This document shows, one piece after another, positions 2,453 to 33,410 of a stretch of DNA of 36,498 nucleotides. A program made the position numbers and the translations under genes. Location of the stretch: assembly GCA_024653905.1 (NCBI GenBank), contig JANLGZ010000036.1:1-36498 (forward strand), written 5' to 3'. Position 1 is the stretch's first letter, and each line of letters opens with the position of its first letter. This stretch comes from an archaeon (lineage in GTDB: Archaea; Iainarchaeota; Iainarchaeia; Iainarchaeales; Iainarchaeaceae). The notes under the pieces are model-generated. The model was not told where the DNA came from, did not search any database, and saw only the letters and a list, made by a program, of their open reading frames with translations.

Positions 2453-2575
2453 CTTTTTAAAGCTTCCACAGGAAGAATTACTAGTACTTTTTCATTCAGA
2501 AAAAGCTCTCTCATGCCGTTAGGGTGAGATGGTAACAAAAACAGAATAAATTAGATTTTAAAAAAAGTGATTTTT
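2453..2575 (+). promoter_or_regulatory. rps15 promoter and structured leader
   Basis: A TATA-like CTTTTTAAAGC at 2453-2463 implies transcription from about 2480, leaving roughly 90 bases before the S15 start, long for this window. The segment holds two small inverted repeats: CTTCC/GGAAG (2463-2475) and CTTTTTC/GAAAAAG with a 5-base loop (2487-2505). A GTGA at 2567-2570 precedes the ATG. The second hairpin could be a leader structure; the first lies at or before the start of transcription. Confidence 0.45.
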
Positions 2576-3031
2576 ATGGCAAGAATGCATTCAGGCGCAA
2601 AAGGAAAAAGCGGTTCTACTCCACCAGCATCTAAACAGAGCGCTAGCTGGGTAGAATACAAACCTGCTGAAGTCGAGCAAATTATTATCGAATTAGCTAA
2701 TTCTGGTTTAACCGCAAGCGAAATAGGAATGACTCTCAGAGACCAATACGGAATTCCGAGTGTTCATAAATTAAGCGGAAAAAAGATTGAACAAATTCTT
2801 GAAAAAAACAAACTTGGTTCTGATATTCCAAGAGATATTCTTAATCTAATCAAAACTTCTGTTAAACTTATAAAACACATGGAAAAAAACAAGAAAGATA
2901 TGACCTCAAAAAGAGGTTACCAATTAACTGTTAGTAAAATCAGAAGGCTTACAAAATATTATGTTGGAAAAGGAAAACTGCCAAAAGGATGGAGATACAC
3001 TCCTGAGAAAGCAGCTCTACTGGTGAAGTGA
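2576..3031 (+). CDS. rps15: 30S ribosomal protein S15 (archaeal S15/eukaryotic uS15)
   Basis: This is a small-subunit ribosomal protein that binds 16S rRNA at the central-domain three-way junction. The 151-residue product begins MARMHSGAKGKSGS, the conserved archaeal start, then WVEYKPAEVEQIIIELA and the helix-turn GLTASEIGMTLRDQYGIP, the N-terminal extension seen in archaea and eukaryotes. The C-terminal half (about 80-151) carries the S15 core HMEKNKKDM.SKRGYQLTVSKIRRL. The frame stays open upstream to GTG 2567, but that GTG is the RBS, so ATG 2576 is the start. It is followed after 4 bases by rps3Ae. Confidence 0.95.
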   Translation: MARMHSGAKGKSGSTPPASKQSASWVEYKPAEVEQIIIELANSGLTASEIGMTLRDQYGIPSVHKLSGKKIEQILEKNKLGSDIPRDILNLIKTSVKLIKHMEKNKKDMTSKRGYQLTVSKIRRLTKYYVGKGKLPKGWRYTPEKAALLVK

Positions 3032-3035
3032 TAAT

Positions 3036-3656
3036 ATGGCTAAGGACAAAAAAGATAAGAAAGAAGAAAAAACAAAAGCACCACCAAAGAAAAAAACCAA
3101 AACCACTGATAAGTGGAAGAAAAAATCTTGGTATGCGATTATTGCACCTGAAGAGTTTGAAAGAAAACAACTTGGAGAAACAATTGTTGAAAAACCTGAA
3201 AACTTAATTGGCAGAGTTATTCATGTTACTGGCAGAGAACTTGCAAACCAGCCAAAGAAACAGCACATCCAATTGAAATTTAAAGTAAGGGACATTACAG
3301 GCAATAAAGCAAATACTGAAGTAGTCGGACATGAAGTAAAAGACAGTTATTTGAAAAGAATCATCAGAAGAAGAGCAAGTAAAATAATGACTGTAAAAAA
3401 TTACACTACAAAAGATAATAAAATTTACAAAATTAAAATAATTATTATTACAGAAAATAAAGCATCAAGAAATCAGAAAACAAGCATTATGAAACAAACT
3501 GAAGAAGCAACAAAGAAAATTATTTCAGAACTTGATTCAAGAAAGGTTATTGATGAAATTGTTTTCGGCACAATTCCTAACAAAATTTATGGAAACCTGA
3601 AAAGCATAGTGCCGGTAAAAAGAATTGAAATAACAAAATCCGCATTAGTTGTGTGA
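3036..3656 (+). CDS. rps3ae: 30S ribosomal protein S3Ae (eS1)
   Basis: The 206-residue product is the archaeal eS1 protein of the small subunit, located near the mRNA exit. It has a Lys-rich N-terminal tail (residues 1-30), then the conserved WKKKSWYAIIAPEEFERKQLGET and IGRVIHVTGRELANQPKKQHIQLKF segments. The core continues with SYLKRIIRRRASKI and the C-terminal FGTIPNKIYGNLKSIVPVKRIEI. The start at 3036 is preceded by GTGATAAT, with the GTGA overlapping the end of rps15. This close packing indicates one r-protein operon. Confidence 0.95.
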   Translation: MAKDKKDKKEEKTKAPPKKKTKTTDKWKKKSWYAIIAPEEFERKQLGETIVEKPENLIGRVIHVTGRELANQPKKQHIQLKFKVRDITGNKANTEVVGHEVKDSYLKRIIRRRASKIMTVKNYTTKDNKIYKIKIIIITENKASRNQKTSIMKQTEEATKKIISELDSRKVIDEIVFGTIPNKIYGNLKSIVPVKRIEITKSALVV

Positions 3657-3660
3657 AACA

Positions 3661-4350
3661 ATGCTTGATGCATTCCCCCCTACAATAACTGCACTAAATT
3701 TTAGTGTGACAATTTTAATTTTAGCAGGATTTTCATTCTTTTCTTACAAAAAAAAACTACTTAATAATACAGGTATTATAATAGCAGATATTGTCGGAAT
3801 AATTGCTTTTGTTTTAGGCGGGTTTTTGGCATTCCTAACCCTGGTTGTTTTTTACATAATAGCAGAGACAGCAACAAAAATAGCAAGGAAAGATGGTCAA
3901 AAACATGAGCAAAGAACAACAGCCAACATTATAGGTAACTCAGGAGCCGCTATAATAGCACTCTTTTTAGGGCAGGGAATCGCATTTTTTGGGGCAATCT
4001 CAGCGGCTTTGGCGGATACAGTTTCCTCAGAGATAGGAATGCTTTCCAAAAAAGATCCTGTTTTAATAACCAATTTTAAAAAAGTTGAAAAAGGAACAGA
4101 TGGCGGAATAACCTTTCTCGGAATAGTATCAGGAATAGCAGCAGCAGTATTAATCGGAATAATTTACTACTTTACAATCAATCCTAACAAAGCAATAATA
4201 ATTGTAATTGCCGGAATAATAGGAACATTAATCGATAGTATTCTTGGCGCAACACTCGAAAGAAAAGGAACCCTGAATAATACGCAGGTTAATTTTCTTG
4301 CAAGTGCATCAGGAGCAATAACTGCTTTTTTACTTTCAGGAATAATTTAA
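3661..4350 (+). CDS. DUF92/TMEM19-family membrane protein
   Basis: This is an integral membrane protein of about 229 residues with roughly six hydrophobic segments. The family core ADTVSSEIGMLSKKDPVLITNF...GTDGGITFLG (about residues 117-158) matches DUF92, where ADT...EIG and GT.GG...LG are the conserved cytoplasmic motifs. Plant and cyanobacterial members (VTE6) phosphorylate phytyl-phosphate, so an isoprenoid-phosphate kinase role is possible, but this is inference from family knowledge. I chose ATG 3661, five bases after a GTGA that overlaps the rps3Ae stop, over the in-frame GTG at 3649. It is transcribed with the r-protein genes. Confidence 0.82.
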   Translation: MLDAFPPTITALNFSVTILILAGFSFFSYKKKLLNNTGIIIADIVGIIAFVLGGFLAFLTLVVFYIIAETATKIARKDGQKHEQRTTANIIGNSGAAIIALFLGQGIAFFGAISAALADTVSSEIGMLSKKDPVLITNFKKVEKGTDGGITFLGIVSGIAAAVLIGIIYYFTINPNKAIIIVIAGIIGTLIDSILGATLERKGTLNNTQVNFLASASGAITAFLLSGII

Positions 4351-4433: not shown

Positions 4434-4949
4434 ATGGAAGAAGACCTGATAATTAAACTCATAATTTATCTTGCGCCAATGTACTTTGCAAACAGTTCAG
4501 CAATGCTTTTTGGCGGAAAAACACCGATAGATTTTGGTAAAAATTTTCTGGACGGAAAACGTCTTTTCGGAGACGGGAAAACCTTCAAAGGGCTTTTTTT
4601 TGGAACTTTAATTGGAACAATAATTTCTGCAATCATTCTTACTTTTCTTCCTGAGCTGACATTATTATTAACTCCAAATTATCTGCTCCTTGGATTTTTG
4701 CTTTCAGGCGGGGCACTTATAGGAGATATTGCTGGAAGTTTTTTCAAAAGAAGAAATGAAATAAAGCAAGGAGGAGAAGTTCTCTTTCTTGACCAATTGG
4801 ATTTTGTTATAGGCGGAATGATAATTGGAAGTTTAGTTTACGTTCCAACTTTTTACGAGATTATTTATGCAATTATAATAACACTTATTGTTCACAGGGC
4901 TTCTAATTTTGTCGCATACAAAATAAAACTCAAAAAGGTGCCATGGTGA
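4434..4949 (+). CDS. carS: CDP-archaeol synthase
   Basis: CarS transfers CMP from CTP to unsaturated archaetidic acid to give CDP-archaeol, the activated precursor of archaeal phospholipids, in the membrane. The 171-residue product has about five hydrophobic segments. It shows the family signature: PMYFANSSAMLFGGKTPIDFG (residues 15-35), then FLDGKRLFGDGKTFKGLFFG (about 38-57), then GDIAGSFFKRR (about 98-108) and DQLDFVIGG (about 120-128). A TATA-like element near 4393-4402 and a GAGGCGA before the ATG support the start. Its last seven bases overlap the archaeosortase-like gene, so the two are translationally coupled. Confidence 0.92.
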   Translation: MEEDLIIKLIIYLAPMYFANSSAMLFGGKTPIDFGKNFLDGKRLFGDGKTFKGLFFGTLIGTIISAIILTFLPELTLLLTPNYLLLGFLLSGGALIGDIAGSFFKRRNEIKQGGEVLFLDQLDFVIGGMIIGSLVYVPTFYEIIYAIIITLIVHRASNFVAYKIKLKKVPW

Positions 4950-5431
4950 AATTTGATAAAAGATATTTAATTTTTCTTTTGAAATTCTTTGTAATTTTTC
5001 TTTTTTTGGAATTTTTTATTTTTGCAACTAATTTAACTTTTTTACAAGAATTTATTGCAAAAACCCAGGCAGAATTTTTCGGATTAAGGTACGCAGGTAA
5101 TTTTGTTTTTGTTTCTGATGGTATTTTTGAAATAGTTCCTGAATGCACAGGCATTGTAAGCACAAGCATTCTTGCTTCAATAATTTTTTCCCTGAAAAAA
5201 CCTGAAATGAAAAAGAAACTATTGATTTTTGGATTAGGTTTTGTGCTTTTATTTATTGTAAATTATTTAAGAGTTTTAAGCATTATCTGGATTGGAATGG
5301 AATATGGAATAGAAAATGCTGAAATCCTGCATGTTACAAGCTGGTTTGCTTCATCAGGATTGGTGATTGCATTATGGTATTATTTCACAAAAAGGATTAC
5401 AGGAGCAAAGAACTTCAAAGGTTTTTTGTGA
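4943..5431 (+). CDS. Archaeosortase/exosortase-family transpeptidase
   Basis: This is a polytopic membrane protein of 162 residues with about five hydrophobic segments. It has the three hallmarks of exosortase/archaeosortase enzymes: a cysteine in PECTGIVSTSI (about residue 57), an arginine in VNYLRVLSI (about 109) and a histidine in EILHVTSWF (about 130). Such enzymes cleave a C-terminal tripartite signal (short motif, TM helix, basic end) and, in haloarchaea, ArtA depends on phospholipid synthesis to attach substrates to lipid. It overlaps carS by 7 bases. The subfamily and exact substrate motif cannot be assigned from sequence alone. A candidate substrate lies at 32742-33410. Confidence 0.85.
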   Translation: MVKFDKRYLIFLLKFFVIFLFLEFFIFATNLTFLQEFIAKTQAEFFGLRYAGNFVFVSDGIFEIVPECTGIVSTSILASIIFSLKKPEMKKKLLIFGLGFVLLFIVNYLRVLSIIWIGMEYGIENAEILHVTSWFASSGLVIALWYYFTKRITGAKNFKGFL

Positions 5432-18916: not shown

Positions 18917-19429
18917 ATGAAAGGACAAGGCGCTTTAGAATATTTACTTCTCATCGGAGGCGGAGTGCTTATTGCAGTTATAGCAATAACAATAATACTC
19001 ACGCTTGCAGGAACAGGAGATGAACAAGTAAACAACAGTGGCACAGACACCTTTGATGCTATTCAAAATATTGCTGCTGAATCATCAGAACTTACAGGAG
19101 GAAATGTTGGTTCACCTTTAACTCTTATTATTGATGACACCGATAGACCTAATGTATCCGTAACTGTTGGAGGATTAGACATAGTTAAAATGGAAGCCCA
19201 AATAAACCCTGAACTTATATGTTCTAAAGTAACTGGAACGTGGAAATGTAACTTTCCCACTGGACAAGGCTCACTTGAAATTGGAAGAAGTTATACTCTA
19301 ATAGTAAAATGTTGGGTGAATGGAACTGCTCTTGATGGAGATCCAACCAAAATAATAACCAAAGATTTTATAGTTGGAGAACAAACTGAAATCCACACTA
19401 GTATCGGTTCAACAACCAATAGAGGCTAA
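18917..19429 (+). CDS. Class III signal peptide-containing pilin-like protein
   Basis: The 170-residue product begins MKGQGALEYLLLIGG, a class III (QXXXE) archaeal signal peptide. In euryarchaeal type IV-like pilins this is cut between Gly and Gln by the dedicated peptidase EppA, leaving the hydrophobic helix (about residues 3-32) as the assembly core. The remainder is a beta-rich extracellular domain with Gly/Thr/Asn content and two closely spaced cysteines (LICSKVTGTWKCNF) plus one more near 134. It is a single gene with its own TATA box; no assembly ATPase is near. It converges on the helicase gene. Confidence 0.85.
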   Translation: MKGQGALEYLLLIGGGVLIAVIAITIILTLAGTGDEQVNNSGTDTFDAIQNIAAESSELTGGNVGSPLTLIIDDTDRPNVSVTVGGLDIVKMEAQINPELICSKVTGTWKCNFPTGQGSLEIGRSYTLIVKCWVNGTALDGDPTKIITKDFIVGEQTEIHTSIGSTTNRG

Positions 19430-19457: not shown

Positions 19458-22400
19458 CTATTTTTTCATCAAAAGCTGTTGTTTCACACTTATTGCTATT
19501 TTTGGACTCAGGATTTTTTCCAAATCCTTAACATCAATTTTTTTCACATCAGAAATGCTTTTAATTCCAGAATTGAATAATCTTCTTGCCCTAACTCTTC
19601 CTATTCCTCTTAATTCACAGAGCATTACAAGTTCTTCTTTAATTCCGTTTTTGAGGCGCTTTCGCATTTTATTTAAAGGAGAAAAATGTTCCTGCAAACC
19701 AATAATTTTTGCTAATTCTAAGGCAGAGTAAGCAAGCCAGTCAGCATTCTGAAGTTTTGCTCTTAGAATCCCGGGCTGTACTTTAAAAGAATCAACCAAA
19801 TCCTGTTCTTTAACTTCCTCAACCCAATCTTTAAGCAAGAAGCTTGTCCAGAGTTTGGAAAGAATATTATTATCAGTGAACATTTCAACATCTGCATTAA
19901 TTGGAAGAAGTTCTTTATTTTCCTGTAATTGTTCCCAGAGTTCAGCTTCCTTGGAAGCAGGAGAAGAAACTAAAGGAGTAAATTCAGAAGTGTTAGTAAT
20001 CGTGAATAAGTAAGCAAGGTCATTGAATTTGTTCTGCTTTAAGGAAGTTATTATTGAAAATGCAGACATTGGATCAAGGTAAAGTTCAGTGACTCTTTTT
20101 CCCAAAGGAGTAGCATCTATTCTGTTTTCATCAGCATCAACAAAACCCATTTCTTCTAATTCTTTTACAATAGAAATTATTTTTCTGAATAAACTTGAAA
20201 GGTTCCCTGTTTGAGCAGCATAAAAGGTTTGCGAAAAAAACTTTTCAGCAGATTCCAAATCAAAAACAAAACCTGTTGAAATAACAGCCAATAAATGAAA
20301 TCTCAACGCTGTTTCTGAAGCTAATTTTGAATCCATGTTTTCTATTTCGCCATTAATAAAATAATCAAAATAATCATCCTTCTCAAATTCAGTTTTTGCA
20401 AGGAGTATTGCCTGACCTTCAGAATCATATTTGGGTCTGCCACTGTTATGGATAACCAATCCGTTGGCAATAAAATTATGCCCTGTTTCAAGCGTAAAAT
20501 CATAGACATACTCATCCACGAGTATTTTTCTCATGCACTTTATTTGGTCGGGGCACACTTGCCCAACCATGTTTTTATTGGAAACGCCATTAAACTGGGA
20601 TTTGGTCACGCTAACTTCCCATATGTGACTTTGCCTAAATGAATTGGGTTTTTTCCTACAAATCCTTGGAATCCACCCAAGCTTTGAAAACATGAGGCAG
20701 AAGTCGCGTGCGAGACGTTCGCTACTTGTAATCAAAAAGTATGAGTTTCCGGTTTCCCAACCATCACAATCACTGTACTCTTTGACAAATGCCTTTGCCA
20801 TTTCGTCAGGCAGATAAAACAACACCTCAGGCAATTTCAGAATAAAAGCCTTTTTCCCGGAAGGAACGCCCAGATTGGCAAGAAAATCACCTATCGGAAG
20901 AGATTTGAAACCGCAACAATAAGAGCCACGCCTCCATTTTGCTTTGGTTTTCTTGCCAAAAAGCGAATAAACCATTGAAGAATATTCCTCCTGAACACCA
21001 CGATTCTTGTTATAATACCTAATCAGATAAGAGTTGTCTTTTTTATTATAGTAAATCGAGCCATCAGACATTATTTTTGCGATGAACCTGCACAGATTTA
21101 CAGACCATTCAAGAGGGAATTTGTGTGCTTGATGACCAGTTTTGTTCATCAGCAAATCTTCTTTCCTCACAAATTTTTCCGAAGAAACATACTCAATCGG
21201 GGCACTTACTTCCCCCATAACACTAAATGCCACAGGGCAAGACAGGTAATCCGAAACTTTATGTGTTTCACCCACCTCCAAACTTTGGGCTTCACGCCAC
21301 TCATAAGGGTTTGGAAACGGTTTCGAACCATCATAAAACCAGTGCTGCAATTGTCTTGATTTTTCTGGCACCCCAAGCACCATAGCTGCTTTAGTCGGAC
21401 CAAACCCCTGCTCGTTTCTAAGCCTAAAGGATTCTGCGTAAAGTTCTTGGGCATTGGAAAAAGGCGAAATTCTCGGTTTTCCCGCGGCTATTTTGGTAAA
21501 ACAAAGCATGGGGTGTTCAGGAGTAACCCTTATTCTTTTCCCCCCACGGGTCTCTATCTCAATCAATTCTTGTGCCTTCCTTTTCCACAAAGAACGGACA
21601 GAAAAAATTTTTACAGACCCAGTTTCAAGTTCAACTCCAAGTAACTCCAACTTGCCATCTGCCTCTTTTTTCCCGACCTCGTCCGAACCAAAAAAGCGGG
21701 AAAAAATTTCCTCAACCCTTTTTACTCCATTGTTAGTGTATACCACGGTGTCTCCAGAAACACAACGCCCAGCCATTTGCTTCCATTCCGAAACTGGAAT
21801 TCTGTCCATCCCATAACCGGTGTAACGATAAGGGGTTTGTAGAATTACTCTATAAGCAGGAAGATTTACCCCCGCGGCTAAAGTTGGCGTTGAAGCAATA
21901 AATTTCAAATAATTTCTCCTGAACAAATCCTCGACAATTTCTCTTTGTTTCTGAAGCAAACCAGCATTGTGAAAACAACTCCCTTTCTTTATTAGTTCAG
22001 CAATTGTTCTGCACTGAACAGTGGGTTGTTCCAATACACTTAAAACTTTTTCAGCAGAATCATTCAAAACATTTTTTTCCTTTTCTGTGAGGACTTTTTC
22101 GGTGATATTCGCAAGTTTTTTTGCAGTAGCCTCACTGCTTCTTTTTGTGTTAGAAAAAACCAAAGCCTGTTTTCCTTTCTTAAGAGTATCAAGGCAAATA
22201 GAAATAGTTGGATCAGTGCTTAGAGTAACATCCTGAGAAGTTTCACCAAAATCAATTTTATCATCTAAAAAAACCCCTTCCTTTAATTCAACAGGCCTGT
22301 AATCGCTTTCAACTAACTCAGCACCAAGCCATTTGGAAAGATCTTTTGCATTTGGAATAGTTGCACTTAAACCAAGAACCTGAATATTCTTGTTCAGAAA

Positions 22401-22877
22401 ACGGAGCTTTGTAATAAGCATTTCTAAAGTAGCCCCTCTATCAGAACCAATGGAATGAATCTCATCCACCACAAGCAAACCTATTTGGGAGAGCCAATCC
22501 GCACGATGGTTCAGAAGCGAATTTAGTTTTTCATAAGTAGTAAAAATAATGTCTTTTTGTGAAAGATATTTTCCAGCAGAATCAAAATCACCAGTGCTTA
22601 AAACAGTTTTAATTCCGAGTTCGGCTGAATATTTATTTTTAAAATCATTAGAATGCTCAGAAGCCAATGCTCTTAATGGACAGGTGTAAACAACTTTTTT
22701 TCTGTTTTTTAAAATTGAATTTAAAGAAGCTAATTCAGCAACAACTGTTTTGCCTGAAGCTGTGGGAGAACTAACCACAATACTTTTTTCCAAAACACCC
22801 GCATCAATTGCTTTTTTCTGCATTGGATTGAATGAATCAAAACCATTGTGATGTTTTACTAATTCAATTATTTCCAT
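19458..22877 (-). CDS. hel308: Hel308-type Ski2-like DNA helicase with an in-frame intein
   Basis: The spliced host protein (about 699 residues) is a superfamily 2 helicase of the Hel308 group, which unwinds lagging strands at stalled forks. Residues 1-371 contain motif I SSPTASGKT (36-44), motif Ib-like LSTGDF, motif II DEIH (138-141), motif III SAT (171-173) and motif IV-V TLAAGVNLPAYRV (332-344). Motif VI reads QMAGR, then the 440-residue intein, then SGRPKYD. After the intein come the winged-helix and ratchet domains and a helix-hairpin-helix tail (LCELRGIGRVRARRLFNSGI). The ATG start at 22877 follows a GGTAT-containing leader 52 bases after the preceding small gene. Confidence 0.93.
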   Translation of the reverse strand: MEIIELVKHHNGFDSFNPMQKKAIDAGVLEKSIVVSSPTASGKTVVAELASLNSILKNRKKVVYTCPLRALASEHSNDFKNKYSAELGIKTVLSTGDFDSAGKYLSQKDIIFTTYEKLNSLLNHRADWLSQIGLLVVDEIHSIGSDRGATLEMLITKLRFLNKNIQVLGLSATIPNAKDLSKWLGAELVESDYRPVELKEGVFLDDKIDFGETSQDVTLSTDPTISICLDTLKKGKQALVFSNTKRSSEATAKKLANITEKVLTEKEKNVLNDSAEKVLSVLEQPTVQCRTIAELIKKGSCFHNAGLLQKQREIVEDLFRRNYLKFIASTPTLAAGVNLPAYRVILQTPYRYTGYGMDRIPVSEWKQMAGRCVSGDTVVYTNNGVKRVEEIFSRFFGSDEVGKKEADGKLELLGVELETGSVKIFSVRSLWKRKAQELIEIETRGGKRIRVTPEHPMLCFTKIAAGKPRISPFSNAQELYAESFRLRNEQGFGPTKAAMVLGVPEKSRQLQHWFYDGSKPFPNPYEWREAQSLEVGETHKVSDYLSCPVAFSVMGEVSAPIEYVSSEKFVRKEDLLMNKTGHQAHKFPLEWSVNLCRFIAKIMSDGSIYYNKKDNSYLIRYYNKNRGVQEEYSSMVYSLFGKKTKAKWRRGSYCCGFKSLPIGDFLANLGVPSGKKAFILKLPEVLFYLPDEMAKAFVKEYSDCDGWETGNSYFLITSSERLARDFCLMFSKLGWIPRICRKKPNSFRQSHIWEVSVTKSQFNGVSNKNMVGQVCPDQIKCMRKILVDEYVYDFTLETGHNFIANGLVIHNSGRPKYDSEGQAILLAKTEFEKDDYFDYFINGEIENMDSKLASETALRFHLLAVISTGFVFDLESAEKFFSQTFYAAQTGNLSSLFRKIISIVKELEEMGFVDADENRIDATPLGKRVTELYLDPMSAFSIITSLKQNKFNDLAYLFTITNTSEFTPLVSSPASKEAELWEQLQENKELLPINADVEMFTDNNILSKLWTSFLLKDWVEEVKEQDLVDSFKVQPGILRAKLQNADWLAYSALELAKIIGLQEHFSPLNKMRKRLKNGIKEELVMLCELRGIGRVRARRLFNSGIKSISDVKKIDVKDLEKILSPKIAISVKQQLLMKK
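20445..21764 (-). mobile_element. Intein with LAGLIDADG-type homing endonuclease in hel308
   Basis: The insert of 440 residues has all splicing landmarks. These are Cys1 in CVSGDTVVYT, the block B motif RVTPEHPML (about 79-87), and the C-terminal block F YDFTLETGHNFIANGLVIHN ending His-Asn, followed by Ser as the +1 residue. Two degenerate dodecapeptides of a LAGLIDADG endonuclease are present, FIAKIMSDGSI (about 227-237) and FVKEYSDCDGWE (about 326-337). Between block B and the endonuclease is a helix-turn-helix-like stretch (FGPTKAAMVLGVPEKS). It sits inside helicase motif VI, a site where only precise splicing restores function. No stop or frameshift is seen. Confidence 0.92.
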
Positions 22878-30171: not shown

Positions 30172-30229
30172 CCCAGTTGGTTAGTTTGGTTTGATAGATG
30201 TTGCCTTGTTCTCTGACATATCTGTGTTG

Positions 30230-30669
30230 ATGGAAAATCAAAATGCGTTAGTTGTTTTTCAAAACAAGAAAATAAGGCGAATATGGCACGAAAATGATTG
30301 GTTTTTTTCAGTAATAAATATTGTAAGCGCCTTGGAAGCGAGCACCCTGCCTAAGAGATATTGGTCTGACTTAAAAGCCAAACTTTCAGAGAAAGGTTTT
30401 GAACCGTACGATAAAATCGTACAGTTGAAAATGCCTGCGGAAGACGGGAAATCAAGGGAAACTGACTGTGCTAACACAAAAAATATGTTTAGAATCATAC
30501 AGTCGATTCCCTAGCCAAAGGCCGAACCATTCAAGCGCTGGCTCGCACAAGTTGGATATGAGCGCGTCCAGGAAATTGAAAATCCCGAACTGTCGCAGGA
30601 ACCATGAAAGAACTTTACAGGGCTAAAGGCTATTCGGACGAATGGATTGAAAAAAGAGTCCGGGGATAG
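30230..30669 (+). pseudogene. Broken BRO-N/antirepressor-type gene
   Basis: Residues from ATG 30230 (ENQNALVVFQNKKIRRIWHENDWFFSVINIVSALEAS..., PAEDGKSRETDCANTKNMFRIIQSIP) match the BRO-N/DinD-like antirepressor family common in phages and mobile islands. A TAG at 30512 interrupts where the family continues SIP(S)PKAEPFKRWLA. The sequence after the stop still reads PKAEPFKRWLAQVGYERVQEIENPELSQE. One base appears to be missing near 30600, where the frame then shifts to MKELYRAKGYSDEWIEKRVRG and ends at TAG 30667-30669, cutting off the C-terminal half. Two or three disabling changes make it a pseudogene. Confidence 0.85.
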
Positions 30670-30939
30670 CTGTCAGGGTTTTATAGGTAAAAACAAAAAA
30701 AAAGAATAAAGTTCCTTTAAAAAAACGGCTCCCGAAAAAAATCTTTTTAATTCAATTTTCTCAAATTAAGCCAAATAACCGAACAGCAACACCAATAAAG
30801 AAAGTAATATATATATGAGAAAACATTAATTACTAAAAATATTCCGGGGTGTTTTTGCTTCAGGAAACCGCGACCCAAAAAAAAACAGCTAACAATAAAC
30901 ACGCAAAAAAAAACACAAGGAACCTAAAAGGGATTTTGG
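30670..30939. promoter_or_regulatory. Intergenic region with promoter of the exported-protein operon
   Basis: The 270 bases after the pseudogene hold no gene. AATATATATAT at 30806-30816 is a likely TATA box, implying a leader of about 100 bases for the exported-protein gene, with many A-tracts. Confidence 0.5.
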
Positions 30940-32736
30940 ATGAAAAAGACACTATTAATTTTACTTCTCTTAACAGCAATGATTTCATATGGCTTTGCCG
31001 CAACCGGACCTGTTTATGAAATCAGCAATTTATTGATTAAAAATGCGGCAGGGATAGAAAAATTAAGAGTAGATGGAATAGTGAACAGTCCAGGTTACAC
31101 TGCACAGAGCATCGACCTTTCAAATGCAAATGACAGAACTTTAACGGTATCTTATGCAGTTAAGAATATTGGTGATGCGGATGGAAGTGGTTTTACTGTT
31201 TCCTATACTGGCTTTCGAGCGGCTTATAATTATTATTTGCCAGAAGTTGGTGTTCTCCCTAACATTGTATACGAAAAAAGAGCAGATTCAGCATCTACCT
31301 CTCCTATTCCTCCAGCAAATATAAATATGGGTGCAACTCAAATAATTTCTTTTGAAATACCCGTTTATGAAAACCTACCTGATTACACCTCATTAGGATT
31401 GAATTTTTACCCTACTGATGTTTATATCACAAATAGCGCAAGTACAGGAACATTCACGGCAGCATCATTTTACATAAAAACACCTATTACCCCCCAAAGC
31501 GACAAATGGGAATTTATTCACCCTGAAATAAGATTTGACCCTGCTGTTCCTTCAGCAACAGACAAGTTTGATATTTACATAAAAGCCACTAATTTAGGCC
31601 CTACTCCCCTGACTACAGTTCTTATTGATACCACAAGTAATATCAGCTGTGCAACTCTTGACACAGCCAACAAAACAGTTTATTTGCCTGCTAACGGTGG
31701 CAACACTGAAGTCAAAATAGGACAGGACTGTGAAAGGACAGATGTGTTAAGCTACTGGTCAAGAGTGACTCTGACAAGCGTACACGTTCCGAATTTTTAC
31801 TCCAGAACAACAGCAACGATGCAGTTTGAACCTGCATCAGGACCTGCTTTTATATTTGTTACTTCTCTTTACCCTACAAAAACTTATTTGCAAAGTGACA
31901 CTCCAGATACAATGAAATTATGCACTAATTATACTCCCTCTTCAGGGTCAAATATTAAACTTGGAAAAATAAATTTTAAATTGACTGAACTTACCACTAA
32001 CCATGTAAAATATACAGAAGACATTTCAATGGGGGGTTTAGCACTCGTCCCAGGAACAAATTATGACATTTGTTCGCCTCTTTTTTCATACTCCGCCTTG
32101 GCAGGCGAACCGCCTCTTCTTTCAAACTTTAAGATAGAAATAAAATTTTATGATGATGCAGATAGCTTAATTTCAACAGGTGGCACGAATACGGCAATAA
32201 TAAAAGATTATGATACTTTAACCTGTAACATTTCCCAGGCAATTGGACCATCTCCAACCACTTGTCAGTGTAGCACAACCACCGTTGGTTTGCAAACAAA
32301 ATACACTTGCAATACAACAAGCCCGCAGACCAAAATCATTGTTGTGTCTTTTACAAATTTAGAACAAGGAGAATATGTCTTCTTTGATACATTTGCTGTA
32401 CCAGGCCAAACCTCTCTGACTTATTCTGTGAGCAGCACTTCGCCTCTAATTCTGCAAAACCTGATTAATCCGGATAACAAAACCTTCGAAATCACGATGA
32501 GTTCAATAGCCCCAGTTACAACTCCAAAAACATTCTATGTTTATGCTTACGGTGCAGGTCTCACGGACCCGCTTGTGATAACCGCAAATGGGCAAACTGT
32601 TTCCCTGACGCCAAGTAACGGCAGTATAAACGGCCAGACTGCAACATTTAACCTTGTTCCAGGCACATTATATGATTTTGGTCTTGCTTGGTCAACTTTT
32701 AGTGACATCCTCACCCGCCTGGTAAGTGGGGGATGA
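30940..32736 (+). CDS. Large secreted protein with signal peptide
   Basis: The 598-residue product starts MKKTLLILLLLTAMISYGFA followed by ATGPVYEIS, a clear Sec signal peptide with a probable cut near residue 20-21. The rest is Thr/Ser/Asn-rich, beta-rich and contains several cysteines (e.g. SNISCATLDT, QCSTTTVGLQTKYTCNT), fitting Ig-like or CARDB-type cell-surface domains (e.g. the segment SYAVKNIGDADGSGFTVSYTGF). It has no C-terminal TM helix, so it is secreted or held by a partner. Its stop overlaps the next exported protein gene, forming a two-gene operon. Confidence 0.78.
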   Translation: MKKTLLILLLLTAMISYGFAATGPVYEISNLLIKNAAGIEKLRVDGIVNSPGYTAQSIDLSNANDRTLTVSYAVKNIGDADGSGFTVSYTGFRAAYNYYLPEVGVLPNIVYEKRADSASTSPIPPANINMGATQIISFEIPVYENLPDYTSLGLNFYPTDVYITNSASTGTFTAASFYIKTPITPQSDKWEFIHPEIRFDPAVPSATDKFDIYIKATNLGPTPLTTVLIDTTSNISCATLDTANKTVYLPANGGNTEVKIGQDCERTDVLSYWSRVTLTSVHVPNFYSRTTATMQFEPASGPAFIFVTSLYPTKTYLQSDTPDTMKLCTNYTPSSGSNIKLGKINFKLTELTTNHVKYTEDISMGGLALVPGTNYDICSPLFSYSALAGEPPLLSNFKIEIKFYDDADSLISTGGTNTAIIKDYDTLTCNISQAIGPSPTTCQCSTTTVGLQTKYTCNTTSPQTKIIVVSFTNLEQGEYVFFDTFAVPGQTSLTYSVSSTSPLILQNLINPDNKTFEITMSSIAPVTTPKTFYVYAYGAGLTDPLVITANGQTVSLTPSNGSINGQTATFNLVPGTLYDFGLAWSTFSDILTRLVSGG

Positions 32737-32741
32737 TTTTG

Positions 32742-33410
32742 ATGAAGAAAGCAGGGGTGTTTTTTCTCCTTCTTTGCCTGATTTTTCTGGCTTTACAATC
32801 CTTTGCAATAGCCCCCGGCCAGATTGATTGCAGCAAACCTTATGTGTGCATTAGTGAAGAGCCGGCACCATGCGTGAATAATGGAAGCAGTATTGTATGC
32901 ATCCTTGAAAACGGCGATGAGTGCCTTGATGCAGAATTAGTCAGTTTGATTTGCGGCGGCACTGCAGGAGATAATTATGTGAAAATTGAAATTACAACTG
33001 ATAAAGATGAGTACACGCTTGCGGACACTCTTATAACAGCAACGATTGTTGTCACACGCTTTGAATCTTTTGTGGAATCTGTTAATGTAACAGTGAAAAC
33101 AACAAACGCAGAAAGTGTGATTGTTGAAAGACCTCTTACGCTGACTTTTTCAGGAACGGACGCAACCCAAACAGGAGAAGTTACTTTTGACACAGCAGAC
33201 CTTGGGGAAGGCATGAAAACAATTATTGCACAAATAGACACTGTAAACACAAGCGGAACAGTGCCAGATGAAACGCAATTGTATGACAACACGGATTACA
33301 AAAACATTATACTGAACACAGGACTGGCAACAACAGCAACCCCAGAAATACCACCAGTATTTATTGTGCTTATTTTAATCAGCGTGTTTTTGCTTGTGAA
33401 CAAAAACTAA
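32742..33410 (+). CDS. Exported protein with possible archaeosortase C-terminal signal
   Basis: The 222-residue product has a signal peptide (MKKAGVFFLLLCLIFLALQSFA), a Cys-containing N-terminal region (DCSKPYVCISEEPAPCVNN and GDECLDAELVSLICGG) and one Ig-like beta domain (YVKIEITTDKDEYTLADTLITATIVV...). It ends TPEIPPVFIVLILISVFLLVNKN: a short PEIPP motif, a TM helix and a Lys/Asn end. That is the tripartite pattern of archaeosortase/exosortase substrates (compare PEF/PGF-CTERM). ATG 32742 follows GGATGAT; an overlapping ATGA start at 32733 is an alternative. It is co-transcribed with the secreted protein before it. Confidence 0.75.
   Translation: MKKAGVFFLLLCLIFLALQSFAIAPGQIDCSKPYVCISEEPAPCVNNGSSIVCILENGDECLDAELVSLICGGTAGDNYVKIEITTDKDEYTLADTLITATIVVTRFESFVESVNVTVKTTNAESVIVERPLTLTFSGTDATQTGEVTFDTADLGEGMKTIIAQIDTVNTSGTVPDETQLYDNTDYKNIILNTGLATTATPEIPPVFIVLILISVFLLVNKN

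Follow-up and report, generated by a model that had tools for sequence, protein, structure and literature searches.

Domain Organization of the Tailed Protein and Its Gene

The stretch of DNA analysed here, referred to as the window, is the entire contig JANLGZ010000036.1 (36,498 nucleotides) of the archaeal assembly GCA_024653905.1, which belongs to the group Diapherotrites (Iainarchaeota), comprises 1.15 Mb and is 92% complete. The gene under study encodes a secreted protein of 222 amino acids and directly follows a gene for a larger secreted protein:

30940..32736, forward strand: secreted protein of 598 aa without C-terminal anchor (open reading frame directly upstream of the tailed gene)
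32742..33410, forward strand: coding sequence of the tailed secreted protein, 222 aa (open reading frame from the ATG at 32742 to the stop at 33410)
32742..32813, forward strand: Sec-type signal peptide MKKAGVFFLLLCLIFLALQSFAIA, residues 1 to about 24 (from the sequence; helix 4-19 in the predicted model)
32979..33317, forward strand: CARDB-like Ig-fold domain, residues 80-192 (predicted structure and PDB fold match)
33336..33356, forward strand: putative sorting motif ATPEIPP, residues 199-205 (order-wide form [VIT]PE-[LTIM]-[NPSH])
33357..33398, forward strand: hydrophobic helix VFIVLILISVFLLV, residues 206-219 (from the sequence; helix 205-221 in the model)
33399..33407, forward strand: short polar/basic end NKN (from the sequence)

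An initial sequence-only reading of this DNA had described a signal peptide, an Ig-like domain and an end composed of PEIPP and a helix. This organization was borne out, and the domain could be specified as CARDB-like by its fold. The β-sandwich of residues 80-192 is predicted with a pLDDT of about 80-86 (mean of the full model 64.9), and among PDB entries it comes closest to the CARDB domain of Pyrococcus PF1109 (3idu/2kl6; TM-score by target 0.64-0.68); Pfam gave no match for the CARDB-like domain of this 222-aa member. Besides signal peptide, sandwich and tail, the protein contains a Cys-containing linker. Its C-terminus reads ATPEIPP-VFIVLILISVFLLV-NKN, in which one Lys constitutes the basic part, i.e., a weak basic end. 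Starting at an alternative in-frame ATG (32733) would lengthen the protein by three residues, and because the stop of the 598-aa gene overlaps this possible start, coupled translation of the two genes is suggested. The 598-aa protein has no convincing relative among 93 related genomes and was therefore rejected as a conserved partner. The strand opposite to 32742-33410 contains no open frame, as it is closed by stops. A scan for sigma-70-type promoters is uninformative for archaea.

An Order-Wide Family of C-Terminal Tails

Distant homologues of the 222-aa protein in the 93 related genomes searched carry the same kind of tail at their end. A tail profile, built from 8 and then from 32 tails, was applied in a six-frame genome search without positional constraint and found matches at E ≤ 0.05 in 54/93 genomes, all of which belong to one order; the 18 genomes of this set lying outside the order gave none. 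The search of 201 further archaea returned 7 weak matches (best 2.5e-4), among which there was no C-terminal PE tail; read singly, the outgroup matches are ordinary membrane-protein helices and one stretch apparently antisense to a DnaK-like frame. All 71 distinct tail matches from fetched loci are situated at the C-terminus, the stop being at most 12 residues away in 68 of them and at most 20 in the other three. The consensus consists of [VIT]-P-E-[LTIM]-[NPSH], a hydrophobic helix of approximately 14 residues and then R/K, and most members end in R/K. Within the tail P-E is near-invariant, and the helix contains a conserved V-L at +14/+15 counted from the Pro. PEIPP had been regarded as a signal that does not carry an established name. 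This holds insofar as the tails stay below the cut-off of every NCBIfam signal model; the PEIPP form itself, however, is seen in close relatives only and the order-wide motif is broader.

As the first relatives came up by domain plus tail, the common tail might reflect nothing but homology of whole proteins of the CARDB family. The ectodomains of the 71 tailed proteins, however, form 27 clusters, in which PKD domains (in several proteins), Ig domains or no known domain can be recognised, and tail identity is higher than ectodomain identity in most of the protein pairs compared, e.g., 58% vs. 19% for the closest relative, a genome of the same genus. We consider this explanation very improbable. 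Relatives carry between one and seven tails per genome on unrelated proteins, and a signal peptide is present in 23 of the 25 tailed proteins whose start lies in the locus, as judged by a simple hydrophobicity rule and not by a trained predictor. Motif, helix and basic cluster are thus located at the C-terminus of secreted proteins and are common to proteins that are otherwise unrelated. Judged from its sequence, the end of the 222-aa protein belongs to a real, order-wide family of putative sorting signals of Diapherotrites.

A Single Tail in the Own Genome

All contigs of the 1.15 Mb genome were fetched, and every ORF end was searched by similarity, by pattern and by profiles. Exactly one PE tail exists in this 92% complete genome, that of the 222-aa protein; these searches yielded no second one, the best of the next candidates having an E-value of about 0.09. 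Further carriers of the tail had been predicted for this genome, and this prediction failed. The lack of a second tail, named beforehand as an argument against a sorting signal, did occur, but it loses weight with the multiple tails on unrelated proteins of the relatives. Several substrates per genome, as is usual for exosortase-type signals, are not seen here. Such multiplicity is not required, and single-target systems are known.

The lone tail could also be a chance resemblance. Shuffled sequences give an expectation of 0.14 per genome for the broad tail pattern, and the single copy found is by itself not significant. What lifts the tail beyond chance is the C-terminal family in the relatives, whose E-values reach 1e-13 and for which the 219 outgroup genomes contain no true counterpart, and we give a coincidence hardly any credence.

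A CarS-Linked Archaeosortase in the Same Window

The window also encodes the likely partner enzyme of the tail, within a conserved gene block:

2567..3656, forward strand: ribosomal protein genes S15 and S3ae, head of the conserved gene block
3649..4350, forward strand: TIGR00297/DUF92-type membrane protein, upstream of CarS (TIGR00297 150 bits, below the cut-off of 206)
4434..4949, forward strand: CDP-archaeol synthase CarS (NF003114 194.7 bits, cut-off 148; PF01864)
4943..5431, forward strand: archaeosortase of 162 aa (TIGR04178 52.9 bits, cut-off 23)
5144..5146, 5270..5272 and 5330..5332, forward strand: codons of the invariant residues C68, R110 and H130 (alignment of 30 orthologues)

The 162-aa protein is a member of the exosortase/archaeosortase superfamily, given its TIGR04178 score above cut-off and the conservation of Cys, Arg and His, which are kept in 30/30 orthologues. 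Its structure is predicted with a pLDDT of 93.5, and no solved relative was found by sequence or by fold. The models of the named subtypes match it far below their cut-offs: ArtD (TIGR04175) with 41.2 bits (cut-off 125), ArtE (TIGR04124) with 40.8 bits (cut-off 95), pacearchaeosortase (NF033505) with 31.7 bits (cut-off 80), ArtA with 26 bits (cut-off 75) and ArtC (TIGR03762) with 23 bits (cut-off 100). According to these model scores, the enzyme belongs to no named Art/Xrt subtype.

The end of carS overlaps the start of the archaeosortase gene in the window, and the block order is S15, S3ae, TIGR00297 (DUF92), CarS and archaeosortase, with TIGR00297 upstream in most loci. In 34 of 36 named archaeosortase loci, the gene for CarS, which makes the key precursor of the membrane lipids, precedes the archaeosortase gene on its strand (32 within 210 nt, 7 overlapping). 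One of the two remaining loci is at a contig edge and the other is a second, partial archaeosortase copy. This partial copy without CarS is on SBBR01000032.1 (L214, same assembly as locus L202) and is perhaps due to strain mixture or duplication. Literature on archaeosortases and CDP-archaeol, searched by term, contained no report of the CarS-archaeosortase gene pair in the portions of text available. The enzyme gene and the tailed gene are 28 kb apart in the window and 60 kb apart, on the same contig, in the closest relative; a comparison of these two revealed no tight synteny between them.

Co-Occurrence of Tail and Enzyme

A second exosortase, which is XrtH-like, is encoded in the same genome on another contig (C63; L063:7627-8229, minus strand; TIGR04178 36 bits), and for this reason the pairing of the tail with the window enzyme needed evidence. 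Two exosortases per genome are the usual state in the order. The XrtH-like gene is closely followed by one for a giant protein of >2400 aa, which has an N-terminal hydrophobic segment and whose gene runs off the contig.

At E < 1e-4, tails are present in 42 of the 66 genomes of the order that have the CarS-linked enzyme vs. 1/9 of those without it (Fisher p = 0.004, ignoring kinship and incompleteness); for the second-type exosortase the association is p = 0.066 with the same disregard of kinship and incompleteness. A real sorting tail might nevertheless be served by the XrtH-like exosortase, which is present in the own genome and in most relatives, all the more as tails are found in a genome (G072, 79% complete) that has only the second type. 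No CarS-linked (type-I) enzyme was detected in this genome, which is congeneric with genomes having it. With the second-type exosortase alone, however, tails are found in 1/7 genomes compared to 5/12 with the CarS-linked enzyme alone, and its association is the weak one, so that we regard this assignment as improbable. The co-occurrence favours the CarS-linked window enzyme over the second exosortase. Surveyed genomes without any exosortase have no tail at all; tails in genomes lacking archaeosortases, a finding that would have spoken against the sequence-only reading, were thus not encountered. Conversely, 24 genomes of the order, above all from families f10 and f20, have the CarS-linked enzyme and no clear tail, and they may have diverged signals or the enzyme may have a different job there.

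Another explanation takes the tail for a plain transmembrane anchor at the C-terminus that is not cleaved, with the PE motif serving as a helix cap. Helices end many archaeal surface proteins, and other secreted proteins of the own genome have a C-terminal helix lacking the PE motif. A mere anchor accounts poorly for a near-invariant P-E and a conserved V-L in a helix as short as about 14 residues, and also for the confinement of the tail to a single order and to enzyme-bearing genomes; such an anchor is in our judgement an unlikely reading. The 162-aa enzyme, a candidate protease/transpeptidase, is the likely partner of the PE tail, and we estimate the probability that the tail is processed by the CarS-linked archaeosortase of the window at roughly 0.7. 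The earlier suggestion of an archaeosortase substrate encoded together with its enzyme is accordingly supported by the tail family, the TIGR04178 score and the co-occurrence.

Comparison With Known Sorting Systems

PEF-CTERM/ArtC (TIGR03024/TIGR03762) likewise combines a P-E motif, a helix and a basic end on secreted archaeal proteins, and PEF-CTERM is the nearest NCBIfam model, matching 8/32 tails weakly (best E 1.3e-4). It differs in that 0/93 genomes score above the TIGR03024 cut-off, the weak matches being at other loci, and in that the ArtC model spans 274 positions compared to the 162 aa of the window enzyme. Filing the system under PEF-CTERM was rejected, since TIGR03024 and TIGR03762 both remain below cut-off. 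Some tails, such as VPEIPP and VPEINP, fit V-P-x-x-x-P by eye; VPXXXP-CTERM/ArtB was rejected nonetheless, as 0/32 tails match at E ≤ 1 and the ArtB model matches 1/30 enzymes. Archaeosortases D and E and pacearchaeosortase are small like the window enzyme and are its best-scoring subtypes, but it stays far below the cut-offs of all three. VPEID-CTERM/exosortase E is a single-target system of alphaproteobacteria; by description only, it resembles the present system in its PE-type motif and its few or single targets, and differs in being bacterial.

PGF-CTERM/ArtA with PssA/PssD in Haloferax and Methanosarcina likewise pairs the archaeosortase with a gene of lipid synthesis, be it as neighbour or as partner (PMC7157517). 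In Methanosarcina, artA adjoins the archaetidylserine synthase gene pssA, and in Haloferax lipid attachment depends on HvPssA, and cleavage of an ArtA substrate on both HvPssA and HvPssD (PMC7157517). In contrast, the linked gene here is CarS, phosphatidylserine decarboxylase is absent and the tail is without PGF. The pair of ArtA and an archaetidylethanolamine acceptor was discarded on the ArtA score of the enzyme and the absence of PF02666. What appears new is an unnamed signal together with an unnamed, CarS-linked archaeosortase subtype within the known exosortase kind, although both may be named elsewhere. In the literature covered, the only text that mentions both Diapherotrites and sortases is a wide-ranging review on trees of ribosomal proteins, and those that mention both DPANN and archaeosortase refer to the enzyme a single time each.

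Lipid Acceptor and Proposed Mechanism

Phosphatidylserine decarboxylase (PF02666) was found in 0/75 genomes of the order by a search that was positive in the controls Haloferax, Methanosarcina and Methanocaldococcus. Because PF02666, without which the ArtA-type acceptor archaetidylethanolamine is not made, is absent order-wide, any lipid acceptor must differ from archaetidylethanolamine. CDP-alcohol phosphatidyltransferases are common in the order, as is CarS, and the only one of the own genome is nearest to archaetidylinositol phosphate synthase, below cut-off. From this gene content, the natural hypothesis is an acceptor derived from CDP-archaeol other than archaetidylethanolamine.

The 222-aa protein would be exported by the Sec route and retained in the membrane by its C-terminal [VIT]PE-helix-basic tail acting as sorting signal. 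The CarS-linked archaeosortase might then recognise the PE motif on the outer side of the membrane, and C68, together with R110 and H130, may cut at or near the motif to form an acyl-enzyme. From this intermediate the protein would be transferred to an acceptor in the membrane, for which an archaeal lipid derived from CDP-archaeol is the most likely choice. The outcome would be a surface protein with one CARDB domain anchored in the outer leaflet, and this domain may serve to retain the 598-aa secreted protein encoded alongside. Transfer of the tailed protein to a lipid, to which the adjacency of the genes points, is judged slightly less likely than not. A dedicated system of Diapherotrites, in which a [VIT]PE-CTERM signal and a CarS-linked archaeosortase act together to attach proteins to some archaeal lipid that is not archaetidylethanolamine, is proposed tentatively and with odds clearly on the lower side.

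To our knowledge, surface attachment of proteins in DPANN archaea is largely unknown, and for an entire order the present work supplies a defined tag together with an enzyme candidate and a substrate list. Moreover, the order offers a natural test of the question which acceptor archaeosortases use, as the enzyme is tied to CDP-archaeol synthesis and the archaetidylethanolamine route proposed for Haloferax is absent.

Other Genes in the Window

A short ORF at 30191-30670 (forward strand) looks truncated or frame-shifted, coding-like sequence resuming downstream in another frame. At 18917-19429 (forward strand) a class III signal peptide protein (PF04021) is encoded, which is probably pilin-like and secreted. 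The gene at 19458-22877 (reverse strand) encodes a helicase of 1139 aa, Hel308-like by eye, with an apparent intein-like insertion (CVSGDTVVYTNNGVKR ... VIHNSGRPKYD).
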